A DNA stretch of 64,000 nucleotides. Source: Rhizophagus irregularis (taxonomy: Eukaryota > Glomeromycota > Glomeromycetes > Glomerales > Glomeraceae). The stretch lies in NCBI RefSeq assembly GCF_026210795.1, contig NC_089440.1, forward strand, positions 1,736,001 to 1,800,000, given 5' to 3'. Shown here piece after piece: positions 42,822 through 58,200 of the stretch (position 1 is the stretch's first letter; every line of letters starts with the position of its first letter). The notes below the pieces were generated by a model. That model saw nothing but the letters and a program-made list of their open reading frames with translations. It made no database searches and was not told the origin of the DNA. Position numbers and translations under genes: made by a program.

Positions 42822-43925
42822 TTTCTTTCAAAAGTTTTCAAACAAAAAAAAACAAATAATTTCGAAGTCAAAATATGTTTTAAAATGCACAATCTGATTC
42901 CCGATTCCTTGTAAAACATTTAATTTTATTTTTTTTTAAAAAAAAGTCGCGGCACCCAAAACATTTACCCATTCATTCATTGTCTTCAGAAATGTAAGGA
43001 TTCAAGGGATAAATTCATCCTTAATTTTGGATAAATCGAGATGTCGTCTGTTAAACAATTCATTATTAATTATTAATCGGGAACTTTTGATTCCAGATCC
43101 CTCGAAATTTATTTTTAATGAATTTCCACTAAATAATTTAATTATTGCATTTTCCATTTTCGAGAAAAAATATCATTCATATTTTTATTTTTTTTTCGAG
43201 GAAAAAATAGTTAAAATATAAAACTCTTAAAAATATGTTTAGGAATATTCGAATAATAATTTATAACAATTGATAACAATCGGAATGTTTATGTCGCGTT
43301 TCAAAGTTTTGTTTAATAAAGAAATATTGTGTCTATTTAAGTAAAGTTCCTATCATCTTATTTGAATCCAAAATCATAAAAGGAATGTTATTAAGTGGTA
43401 TTACGGATGGCTTTTACCTTTACCTTTGTTCGGATATACCTTAATTAAGAAGGTGGTTGCATATAAATATATAGTAATAGTGAGAAGATTTAATTAATTC
43501 GCGGGATCTAGAGAATTTAAGGATCGAATTGTTACTCAGAACTCCCGGATCTTTGAATATATATGTATAAGCATATCTTGCTATAAATTATAATTTCCGA
43601 CGAAGCCACATTATCATACTTTTTATTCTGCATTTTCGCCTGTATACTTAATATGGTTACAATTAAACTTTAAGCCAATCAAATTCAAACACATTTAATT
43701 AAAATTCTAATGATATATGATTACCAATTGTAACTAACAGCATGTAATAACTCCTTATAAATAGCGTTTTATTTCAAGAATTCATCGTTGTTCGTTTCTC
43801 ATTCAACAATTTTCTTCTATCAACTGCCAAATTATTAATTTACACGTATTTGTTTTCCTTATTTTCTAATAAACTGGAACAAATTGTATTAACGAGAGAA
43901 TATTTATATATCAGGGTAGGTCACC
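42822..43925. promoter_or_regulatory. Divergent intergenic region of the 364-aa and bZIP genes
   Basis: 1.1 kb between two divergent start codons. It should contain both promoters and the 5' leader of the bZIP gene. The 43027-43221 frame is not convincing as a gene. I could not single out an unfolded-protein-response element by eye. Confidence 0.4.
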
Positions 43926-45362
43926 ATGTCCTTAATAAAAAACTCCACAGAATATAAAAGCTCCGATAATGAGCAAGTAAATTTAGTTATATCTTCAAAC
44001 TCAAATAATATTTGGAGTAAAGAGGATATGGTGGCCTCAACCCAAGAAAATAATAATAATAACACATCAAGCAATACTGAATATACAGATCTATCACAAC
44101 TCAACTCATTAATCTATTCTCCAACTTTATCTTCCTCATCACAAGATTTAGAAAATAGTTTATCAACAGATGAAAGCATTATAGCAATAGCTCAAAGTAA
44201 TGATTTATTTTTACAAGAATATATTAATGTAGAAGAGTTACAAAAATACACAGACAAGATTTTTTCATGTTCACTTCCAACTACTCCTACTATCACACCT
44301 TCTACTACACCTACTACACCTTCTGCTTCTTTAGTAACTCCTGTTAAACCAATTAAACCCGCATTACCACTTAAATCTACAGTATCCACACCAAATTCTG
44401 ATAATGATGATCTTTCTATTAATGATGAATCAAATCTTAAAAAGAAAGCAGCAGGAGGTCGTAAGAGAAAAGCTGAAAGTTTAGAAGAGAAAGAACAAAG
44501 ACAGCGTGAAAGGTATTGTTTCATTTATTCATTAATTAAAAAAATTACAATATTTTTATAAAATTGACTTTGATTTCTAATATTTCTCTTTTTTTTTTTT
44601 TCTTAAAGAATTTTAAGAAATCGACACGCTGCTCAAATGTCACGAGACAAAAAAAGAAGACAAATGGCTGATCTTGAATCTCAAAATCTTTTACTTAAAG
44701 AAGAAAATGAGCATTTATCTAAAAGATTAAAAGTAGTTGAAGAAGAAAACATCAATCTATCTGCCAAGCTTGATGTTATTTCAGCACAATTAAGTGAAAT
44801 TCAATCGCACCTAGCTGTTTCCGAGATGACCAAAGTCCTACTTGACGGTGTTCGCGGATCTGCAGTATCCGCGACCTTGGATTATGACTCTAACGCATCG
44901 AATAATAATAATGGTAAGAAAGAACAAACGAGCAGCACAAAAATGAACGGCAGTCAGAATGAGACTTTACTGGATTCTTCATATAGGTATTACTTATCCG
45001 ATAATGATGATGCAAAAGAGTTCAATTTATCCGAGAAGTCCCAGCAGCGGCACGTCAAGATGAGGAACCTTTACGGGATATTATCACAGACCCATTCTAT
45101 ACCGACTTGGATGCTTCAACAACCGCAACAAATAATGAAGCAAGTGTTCTTGATCTTTTCGATAGTTTTTTGGACTATGACTGGTCAGATAAAGAACTTT
45201 CAACTATTGGACAAACAGATGGGATTTGTTGATGATATTGTCATCTTGGAACTTGATCGTCTCTTAAAAGTAAGACGGTCGAAACCCGTAAAGGCTTTGC
45301 GTGGTAATACGTTTTCAGGTATGAGACGTGTTCCACGTGACTGGCGTAAATATCCACCATAA
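43926..45362 (+). CDS. HAC1: HAC1/XBP1-type bZIP transcription factor with a probable IRE1-spliced, frame-shifting intron
   Basis: A spliceosomal intron (44513-44608, GTATTG..TTAAAG) joins exon 43926-44512 to 44609-45362, giving 446 aa. The first 175 residues are Ser/Thr/Asn-rich. A nuclear-signal-like KKAAGGRKRKAE precedes the basic region RERILRNRHAAQMSRDKKRR and a zipper (LESQNLLLKEENEHLSKRL), as in HAC1/XBP1. Fifty codons later, 44852-44874 forms a perfect 8-bp stem with the loop CTGCAGT, an IRE1-type CNG|CNGN site. A CAG|CAGC lies at 45042-45048. Removing 44863-45044 (182 nt) changes frame and gives a 342-aa protein with an acidic 62-residue tail (DLFDSFLDYDWSDKELS) ending at 45232. The unspliced frame keeps a hydrophobic VFLIFSIVFWTM. 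Known family role: master regulator of the unfolded protein response. A 131-nt GTAAGA..CAG intron (44914-45044) would give the same frame, so the splice type needs proof. Confidence 0.88.
44852..44874 (+). promoter_or_regulatory. Putative IRE1 cleavage hairpin (5' site)
   Basis: Stem TCGCGGAT (44852-44859) pairs perfectly with ATCCGCGA (44867-44874), with the 7-nt loop CTGCAGT between them. The loop fits the IRE1/RtcB consensus CNG|CNGN, with predicted cleavage after 44862. It lies about 150 nt downstream of the zipper codons, as expected. Confidence 0.75.
45042..45048 (+). promoter_or_regulatory. Candidate IRE1 3' splice site CAG|CAGC
   Basis: Matches CNG|CAGC. Cutting after 45044 makes the intron 182 nt, and 182 mod 3 is 2, exactly the shift needed for the acidic frame. 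Only two closing G-C pairs are visible around this loop. The overlapping CAG|CGGC (cut after 45047) would give the same frame. Confidence 0.5.
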
Positions 45363-45805
45363 CATTTAGTGAAAAAAAAAAAATTGGTAATTTCTAATAT
45401 TAATTTAATTCAGATTAATTCCTCAGTCTACTAGTATAGAACTTATATTTTTTTGTTAAAAATTTTTTACTTCCGTCTTTAAAAAAACATTATTAGTATA
45501 TTTTTCTTGATTCGAATTGTTTTTTTTTAAGTACATCTTTTTAATTGCTCGAAATTTAACATTTTTATTTCGTTTTTCATAATAAAATTATTTGTTTAGT
45601 ATAAATTGTTTATAAGTCTTTTTCATTATTTTATAATGAAAAGTTGAAATGAAAATGTATTTATTATATATATATATAAACAAAAAATAAAGAATATTTT
45701 TTATATTAAAATTTCCTATTATCTAAATTTCTATGAATTATTAGATTATACAAAATCATCGTATCTTTTAATAGAGTAGTACTTTATCAAGTATCTATTA
45801 ATACT

Positions 45806-57099: not shown

Positions 57100-58200
57100 T
57101 TGTTCATTGGTCCAGTGTTAATCATAGGAATCGCTACTATGTGGTCAAATCTCAAACAAAAAATTTCCGATAAACTTTCTGCACGTGTCACTAGAATCGT
57201 CAATGATCTTGATATAAAAAATAATACACCGGAAATCGAAAACATCTTCAGTAAACTTACCGCGGAAATTAATACTAAAATCACCAATGAACTTTCCGCA
57301 CGTCCTTCTGAAGTTAATTCTTCTTTCACTGCGGAGCTCGGCAAAAATAATAATAAACTTACCGCAGAAATCGCTAAAATCAATTCACGTGATGCTGGCT
57401 ACGCCTCTGAGGCGCAGAAAAATTTATCGATGGTCAATAATGTGACCACAAGACTTGTTGAAATCGAACGAGAATATGAAAGCAATTTTACTAGAATTTA
57501 ATCAGAGTTTACCACAATCAATGCTACTATCCAAGTTCTTCTAAGCAATATGGTTCGACATAATGTAGATGGTATTCTTGCTCAAAGAACTCAGTCAGTA
57601 TCTGACGAATCTGATGAATCTGATCAACAAAGTGTGGCTAACAATTCCGTTGCTTCAAGCCAATCAGAGTCTAGCTCTTATTCCGGAAGTTCATCATCTT
57701 TTTTTGAAAATGTTGAGAGCCGTTTTAAGCAAATTTTTAATTCGTTTAAAGGGAATGATTCTGTTGACTATATGTGTGAAACTGTGGGCTGTAGCTTGTG
57801 AAATTCGTCAACTTAAAGGGAAAAAGATTGGAGGGTCTACTATAAAAAGTTTTTATTATGGGTATAGTGATTCGAAAAATAGTACAGTAAAGTTAATTAG
57901 CAAATGGTTAGATAGCAAAGAAAATATTAGTAGTTTAGATAATAATCAAGAGTAGCGGGGAAGGAACTGCCAGTATATGAGTTAGTATACATGTTGCCCA
58001 AATTATTTTGGGCTGCCGTAATTAATTATTTTGGCACTTTACATAGTAAATTACATATAAACTGAATGAATTTCGGCATCCCAAATTATAATTATGGCAT
58101 TCTAAAATAATTTGGGCAGCATGTATATGAGTTAGGGCTCGGCAGGCTTATCAAGCAGGTTCTTTTATGCCTTTCCCTCCCTTGAAACATCCTGCTATTC
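57100..58200 (+). pseudogene. Lineage-specific coiled-coil gene, broken and carrying a MITE
   Basis: The frame from 57100 encodes 133 residues of heptad-like sequence (LSARVTRIVNDLD, LTAEINTKITNELSAR) and stops at 57501. The same frame continues to 57801 with EFTTINATIQVLLSN and a Ser-rich SVASSQSESSSYSGSSSS. A second frame then carries VKLWAVACEIRQLKGKKI, STIKSFYYGYSDSKNST and VKLISKWLDSKENISSLD to 57955. After a 142-bp MITE, the coherent ending RQAYQAGSFMPFPPLKHPAI follows. This order matches a family I know from Rhizophagus only, of unknown function. At least one stop and two frame changes make it a pseudogene, unless short introns explain them. Confidence 0.6.
57986..58127. mobile_element. 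142-bp MITE with 8-bp target duplication
   Basis: The ends TATACATGTTGCCCAAATTATTTT and its complement match at 23 of 24 positions. TGAGTTAG flanks both sides (57978-57985 and 58128-58135). An 8-bp duplication fits the hAT superfamily, though the ends do not begin with the usual CA. It splits a coding region: upstream and downstream pieces belong to the same family sequence. Confidence 0.85.

Follow-up and report, generated by a model that had tools for sequence, protein, structure and literature searches.

A predicted IRE1-spliced HAC1/XBP1-type gene with two conserved C-termini in Rhizophagus irregularis

The gene and its paralogue

The window analysed here is a stretch of 64,000 nt from the genome of the arbuscular mycorrhizal fungus Rhizophagus irregularis (contig NC_089440.1, forward-strand positions 1,736,001 to 1,800,000). 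It contains a gene for a basic leucine zipper (bZIP) protein, which we predict with high confidence to be a HAC1/XBP1-type factor of the unfolded protein response whose mRNA is spliced by IRE1; two copies of the gene were found in this genome. The features of the window copy are collected in Table 1. The protein obtained by joining the two coding exons matches the Pfam family bZIP_2 with 27 bits (cut-off 22.3); the scores for bZIP_1 and bZIP_Maf come out slightly under their own cut-offs. The nearest solved bZIP structure is that of CREB (21 bits), and 25 of the 45 residues of the basic region are identical to those of Saccharomyces cerevisiae HAC1, in a comparison with one yeast sequence.

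Searches of the genome itself (146.7 Mb in 32 contigs) returned one further copy, on the minus strand at C1:480156-480878 (locus L002), with 73% protein identity. The 96-nt intron 1, which interrupts the basic region, shares its position with a 75-nt intron of this paralogue. Read straight through, the two genes encode proteins of 446 and 415 residues, respectively; after the predicted excision, these become 342 and 323 residues.

Table 1. Predicted features of the gene (positions within the window; HP, hairpin; P, helix)
Feature	Position	Strand	Remarks
Coding exon 1 (N-terminal part, start of basic region)	43926..44512	+	Open frame; joined reading gives a bZIP protein; Pfam bZIP_2
Ordinary spliceosomal intron 1, GTATTG..TTAAAG, 96 nt	44513..44608	+	Placed from the reading frame; T 0.55, G+C 0.13
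Exon 2 as in unspliced mRNA	44609..45362	+	Open frame; whole unspliced protein 446 residues
Start-codon hairpin, 5' arm	43918..43933	+	Includes AUG at 43926; pairs with 44022-44037
Start-codon hairpin, 3' arm	44022..44037	+	Pairs with 43918-43933
5' splice-site hairpin HP1, loop CTGCAGT at 44860-44866	44852..44874	+	Predicted cut after 44862; 8 of 8 pairs identical in paralogue
Predicted IRE1-type intron, 182 nt	44863..45044	+	2 modulo 3; unspliced frame open throughout in both copies
3' splice site CAG|CAGC	45042..45048	+	Predicted cut after 45044; weak stem 45038-45040 / 45049-45051; block 45034-45062 identical in paralogue
Bridging helix P1, 5' strand, exon side	44841..44847	+	Pairs with 45053-45059
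Bridging helix P1, 3' strand	45053..45059	+	One C-G to U-G change in paralogue
Intron-side helix P2, 5' strand	44876..44881	+	Pairs with 45030-45035; directly behind HP1
Intron-side helix P2, 3' strand	45030..45035	+	Pairs with 44876-44881
Intron helices P3 (44886-44891) and P4 (44895-44900), 5' strands	44886..44900	+	Pair with 45017-45022 and 45008-45013
Intron helices P4 and P3, 3' strands	45008..45022	+	Pair with 44895-44900 and 44886-44891
Second frame, acidic C-terminus of predicted spliced protein (342 residues)	45045..45232	+	Conserved in paralogue
Hydrophobic stretch VFLIFSIVFWT, unspliced frame	45144..45176	+	Ends 61 residues before the C-terminus
C-terminal tail of unspliced protein, at and past the second-frame stop	45231..45362	+	Ends in RVPRDWRKYPP; last 11 residues identical in both copies

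Candidate splice sites and the RNA fold

A sequence-only reading of this DNA had pointed to a perfect 8-bp stem behind the zipper, closing the loop CTGCAGT in the CNG|CNGN form of IRE1 sites. Its coordinates check: the arms are TCGCGGAT (44852-44859) and ATCCGCGA (44867-44874), and among the 78 CNGCNGN loops of the window (39 per strand) it is the only one with at least four perfect adjoining pairs, namely eight, when Watson-Crick pairs are counted and G-U pairs are excluded. The same reading had placed cuts after 44862 and after 45044. Indeed, these remove 182 nt, which is 2 modulo 3, and the joined sequence encodes 342 residues, continuing in a second frame that is open from 45011, behind a stop at 45008-45010, to the TGA at 45230-45232. 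In the paralogue, on another contig, which here stands in for the related genomes proposed for comparison, the stem is the same letter for letter; the loop there is CAGCAGC, which still has the form CNG|CNGN. The 3' site is retained as well, and the excision predicted for the paralogue takes out 146 nt, again 2 modulo 3, leading into the same second frame. A pattern search for the hairpin allowing two mismatches returned both copies and a third place, where two pairs of the arms are mismatched. The conserved stem, rule-abiding loop, 3' site and frame shift, together with the IRE1 and Trl1-type ligase genes of the genome (see below), support the IRE1-type interpretation put forward earlier.

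The two copies differ at 31.5 of 39.2 synonymous sites in the 61 codons of the zipper. The corresponding figure is 2.0 of 17.0 in a 20-codon block at the 5' site (44820-44881; two-sided Fisher p = 3e-6 versus the zipper) and 0 of 8.0 in a 14-codon block at the 3' site (45029-45078; two-sided Fisher p = 4e-5), and the intron interior (44882-45028) is variable again, with 13.0/23.5 synonymous and 30.0/93.5 nonsynonymous sites differing. Codons facing gaps or split at the edge of a region were omitted from these counts, and the Fisher tests were run on rounded counts. By this measure, silent sites are frozen precisely around the two cut sites.

A consensus fold of the two copies comprises HP1, the bridging helix P1 (extended outward), P2, and then P3 and P4 deeper in the intron; in the paralogue, a single unbroken 15-bp helix takes the place of P3 and P4. 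In the structure as drawn, all 72 cells pair (36 pairs in two sequences), versus 31-42% when the partners are slid by 1-3 columns. One pair in P4 has changed on both sides between the copies, and five other pairs have changed on one side. With random pairs of pieces drawn from the two genes, a duplex energy as low as that of the outer (P1) part was reached by 29 of 5000 pairs for the window copy and 128 of 5000 for the paralogue; for the inner (P2-P4) part the counts were 13 and 0 of 5000, respectively. In the assumed mRNA of the window copy (43860-45420 minus intron 1), the pairing probabilities are 0.71-1.0 for P1, HP1 and P2, 0.23-1.0 for P3 and 0.5-1.0 for P4. According to this model, pairing in P1 to P4 would bring both cut sites together, with P1 weaker in the paralogue. 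Folding of the RNA, which had likewise been recommended as a check, thus gives for both copies a structure that juxtaposes the cut sites, with a weak stem at the 3' site.

Two C-termini and the alternatives

After the predicted excision, translation would enter the second frame, the end of which is rich in acidic residues in both copies (D or E at 15 of 60 positions in the window and 13 of 58 in the paralogue), as had been noticed for the window copy from its sequence; a role in activation is a candidate function. Over 45047-45229, this frame shows 14.0/38.5 synonymous versus 20.0/138.5 nonsynonymous changes per site (one-sided p = 0.003 on rounded counts), a pattern by which we judge that the acidic frame is under purifying selection. 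The unspliced frame over the same DNA has 9.7/37.2 versus 23.3/139.8, which is not significant (p = 0.13).

Downstream of the second-frame stop, the DNA can be read in the unspliced frame alone; the sequence-only reading had noted neither this conserved continuation to 45362 nor the start-codon hairpin described below. In the 42 codons of this tail, 14.5/30.5 synonymous versus 18.5/95.5 nonsynonymous sites have changed (one-sided p = 0.003 on rounded counts). It is mainly because of this conserved tail that we regard the unspliced product as a protein that is probably made and serves a purpose: the tail can be encoded by the unspliced mRNA alone, which makes its conservation evidence for function and the gene one on which such a function can be tested. 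The retention in the second copy of both protein ends, and of the shape of the RNA, points to a separate role for the uncut form. When the protein of the second frame was held constant and its codons were redrawn by usage, the unspliced frame was open in 725 of 20000 cases for the window and 120 of 20000 for the paralogue; with codons merely permuted, it was open in 7599 and 6037 of 20000. The composition of 45230-45362 is coding-like too, with a G+C of 0.42 versus 0.16 in 45363-45760, after the stop.

Among 11-residue stretches, the most hydrophobic in each unspliced protein is VFLIFSIVFWT in the window and LLLTFSIVFWT in the paralogue. In both copies it ends 61 residues from the C-terminus, a spacing held in spite of balancing one-residue gaps between the tails, and the final Trp occupies the sixth position counted from the end. 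Hydrophobicity as such gave no clear sign of being a selected trait of this frame, as it was no higher than the overlapping frame yields by itself: among the open usage redraws that keep the acidic frame, 441 of 725 (window) and 105 of 120 (paralogue) were as hydrophobic, and for permuted codons the counts were 2482 of 7599 and 2232 of 6037. From 44637 onward, the unspliced protein matched no XBP1 chain in the Protein Data Bank at E up to 10; its two weak matches to solved chains (E 0.55 and 1.2) were to unrelated proteins and were discarded.

Several observations weigh against IRE1-type splicing of this gene. The comparison rests on two gene copies from a single genome, and splicing is predicted from DNA alone. 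For only two sequences, the control for covariation carries no information: 272 of 500 shuffles scored as high. The consensus energy of −45.55 kcal/mol does favour the fold, against a mean of −30.85 (sd 4.53) in 300 column shuffles, of which one was as low, but these shuffles preserve conservation classes and not dinucleotides. In the paralogue, P1 reaches probabilities of 0.75-1.0 in a shorter stretch and of 0.15-0.19 and 0.26-0.35 in longer ones, and the stem at the 3' site has three pairs with a probability of about 0.3 in the window and in the shorter stretch of the paralogue, and of 0.06 in a longer stretch of the paralogue. The minimum free energy of 44800-45080 does not lie under that of shuffled sequences (z = +0.86), so that fold stability alone is no argument and support comes from the paralogue. 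Finally, GGTAAG and a downstream CAG that would give the same frame are present in both copies and delimit 131 nt here (44914-45044, GTAAGA..CCCAG) and 101 nt in the paralogue (GTAAGG..CCCAG).

These signals could mark a spliceosomal intron, constitutive or regulated by retention, which would yield the acidic form; the sequence-only reading had named it as an alternative giving the same frame, and the GTAAG and CAG are indeed there. It had also remarked that 44914-45044 is less T-rich than other introns here and holds coherent codons, and both remarks are borne out. The stretch has a G+C of 0.37 and a T of 0.24, versus 0.10-0.23 and 0.48-0.57 in three introns of the genome (intron 1 of each HAC1 copy and one intron of IRE1). 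Each copy can be read through it without a stop, with length differences that are in-frame and with more synonymous than nonsynonymous change per site (one-sided p = 0.027). A CTRAY-like motif is absent from 44914-45044 and occurs once in the paralogue's stretch, 80 nt from its end, although this test is weak, as the paralogue's true intron 1 likewise has one, 72 nt from the end. Such an intron would moreover leave unexplained why a hairpin some 40 nt upstream of GTAAG is frozen, and we consider it very unlikely to be the source of the acidic form.

The hairpin and the second frame might also be products of chance or of conservation at the protein level, with the unspliced protein as the sole product. 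Frame 0 is indeed open as far as 45362 in the window copy and up to its end in the paralogue, the hairpin sits in the conserved protein sequence GVRGSA-SATL, and mere permutation of the frame-0 codons leaves the second frame open in 6699 of 20000 cases for the window and 6237 of 20000 for the paralogue. When these codons are redrawn by usage, however, the second frame is open in just 403 and 1152 of 20000, respectively, and chance would account neither for the frozen synonymous sites around both cut sites nor for the deficit of nonsynonymous changes in the second frame, which makes this explanation extremely unlikely in our view. Ribosomal frameshifting in place of RNA splicing would suit a conserved second frame without an ATG of its own (the listed open reading frames begin with TTG or GTG), but frame 2 opens at 45011, so the shift would have to fall at or after that position, leaving the 5' hairpin unexplained; we find this, too, extremely unlikely.

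Start-codon hairpin, enzymes and known systems

For splicing by IRE1, the genome holds the expected enzyme genes. There is one IRE1 gene, on contig C19, with its KEN RNase domain split over two exons. Its frames show the kinase motifs VAVK, HRDIKPQN and DFG, and Pfam identifies Pkinase and Ribonuc_2-5A; upstream of them, a hydrophobic stretch was taken for a membrane span and a part read by eye for the luminal domain, whose two pieces matched 0 families in Pfam. The RNase domain, its exons joined by hand, matches 2rio (E 3.1e-40) and 4z7g (E 8.3e-37), which we take to be yeast and human IRE1, and keeps the RNK.HH stretch of 2rio. A ligase is encoded on contig C27 by the domains RNA_lig_T4_1 and tRNA_lig_CPD, the two on which its typing as Trl1-like rests; one stretch of it contains two TAG and was taken as a candidate intron. 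Sidrauski reportedly described the role of this type of ligase in yeast in 1996, to judge by the title. A search for RtcB that was positive in 9 of the 14 control genomes gave no match in this genome. Contig C31 carries a second tRNA-ligase CPD domain (L006, G000:C31:290734-291375); unlike on C27, an RNA ligase domain was not found there.

From these elements we propose a pathway of stress-dependent cutting and joining. In unstressed cells, the mRNA would be read straight through into the 446-residue protein with its hydrophobic stretch and basic tail. Upon stress in the endoplasmic reticulum (ER), we infer that IRE1 would cut CUG|CAGU (after 44862) and CAG|CAGC (after 45044), held side by side by the helical junction, and that the Trl1-type ligase would join the cut ends; excision of the 182 nt would shift the frame and produce the 342-residue bZIP factor with its acidic activation end. 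By analogy with XBP1u, the hydrophobic stretch of the unspliced protein might emerge from the ribosome as translation is slowed by the basic, Trp-containing C-terminus, and the mRNA might thereby be taken to IRE1 at the ER, a tentative idea that we think somewhat more likely wrong than right.

The start codon is enclosed in a hairpin of 16 pairs, or 20 with an outer extension across a bulge, which in the paralogue has 17 unbroken pairs. Its duplex energy of −30.6 kcal/mol (−33.7 in the paralogue) is the lowest among those of the 2241 ATGs of the window, the next being −29.3. Pairing probabilities were 0.87-1.0 for the pairs inspected in the assumed mRNAs of both copies. Among the 16 shared pairs, three differ on one side, each being G-U in the window, and none on both sides; the arms are 88 nt apart in the window versus 50 nt in the paralogue. 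All exact matches listed for the arm AGGTCACCATGTCCT in the genome lie in these two genes. Splicing cannot remove the hairpin. We see an even chance that it acts as a separate brake on translation; if so, a hairpin of 16-17 pairs would be a second such brake, replacing the leader-intron duplex of yeast. Leader-intron pairing of the yeast kind was rejected for the window copy, its −28.7 kcal/mol being matched by 428 of 1000 random window pieces; the value for the paralogue, which has no control of its own, is −23.2 kcal/mol.

Conserved intron structures of HAC1/XBP1 were reportedly described by Hooks and Griffiths-Jones in 2011. Like yeast HAC1 and its relatives in Saccharomycotina, the gene combines a bZIP basic region with a predicted middle-length intron and two candidate boundary loops, in a genome with a Trl1-type ligase gene. 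HAC1 introns span 19 to almost 850 nt, with a middle class of 50-500 nt (PMC6222058, available portion), so a length of 182 nt is not unusual in itself. Unlike in yeast HAC1, the unspliced frame here reads through the intron, and the window copy has no leader-intron pairing above chance, its start codon lying in a local hairpin instead. The translational brake in yeast is a leader-intron duplex (PMC8881652), a pairing found in HAC1 only, and the unspliced form XBP1 U is translated (PMC4891664), according to the accessible sections of these papers.

The likeness to animal XBP1 and XBP1u lies in the overlapping frames after the 3' site and in an unspliced protein with a hydrophobic stretch. Animals use RtcB, unlike the system proposed here with its Trl1-type ligase. 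In human XBP1u, residue 261 is the last; L246, one of the residues described as critical, has by eye no counterpart at its distance from the Trp, where F and A are found here. The animal intron is 26 nt long, versus 182 nt here. The region HR2 and the Trp of XBP1u are kept in Drosophila (PMC4138184, in the portion available). By this analogy, the likeness to XBP1u is one of layout rather than of demonstrated descent.

In Aspergillus hacA, the intron is about 20 nt long. The shift of frame upon excision is shared with hacA and other filamentous-fungal HAC1 genes; the longer intron, the unspliced tail conserved between paralogues and the start-codon hairpin set the present gene apart from hacA. 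Functions of the unspliced hacA product itself are debated without consensus (PMC7580959, as far as its accessible text goes).

Previously, a survey of bZIP proteins that sampled R. irregularis treated HAC1 as an old family and does not mention this intron in its available part (PMC4736632). The words Rhizophagus, Glomero-, Mucoro-, Rhizopus and Chytrid- are all absent from the main text of PMC4891664, which treats IRE1-bZIP signalling in eukaryotes at large. In the literature searched, outside which most subscription journals lie, no description was found of the wiring of the unfolded protein response in arbuscular mycorrhizal fungi, nor any account of unconventional HAC1 splicing in Glomeromycotina or Mucoromycota or of an XBP1u/HR2-like feature in a fungal HAC1; the accessible parts of the HAC1/XBP1 papers examined hold no mention of a start-codon hairpin. 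The combination of yeast-like intron size and ligase, an XBP1-like overlapping and conserved unspliced product, and a start-codon hairpin reads as a new form within the HAC1/XBP1 kind. Arbuscular mycorrhizal fungi should rely on secretion for life inside roots. If the XBP1u-like interpretation is true, mRNA recruitment of this kind would exist beside a yeast-sized intron in a probably early-branching fungus, which would suggest an origin before the animal-fungal split and bears on the state of the animal-fungal ancestor.

Relatives were also sought in collections from which records close to the window's genome may be omitted: plasmids gave none by megablast, none of eight pattern matches among viral contigs was confirmed as a relative by tblastn, and genome_contigs held one exact hairpin match, in the bacterium Tersicoccus solisilvae, taken as chance given the size of the collection. 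The lone Rfam match to 43800-45800 at E up to 1, Phe_leader with 23 bits versus a cut-off of 55, was likewise put down to chance.

The start-hairpin arm was rejected as a genome-wide motif, with at least three exact matches, all in these two genes, and at least 29 with one mismatch. At least 24 of the one-mismatch matches share the variant AGCTCACC, probably a repeat; at these places, at least 24 in the genome, stands AGCTCACCATGTCCT, one base off the arm and probably part of a repeat family. Elsewhere in the window, 57986-58024 and 58089-58127 form a 39-nt inverted repeat, 87% complementary and 64 nt apart, possibly a small mobile element; the ATG at 57991 within it ranks second in pairing strength among the window's 2241 ATGs (−29.3 kcal/mol).

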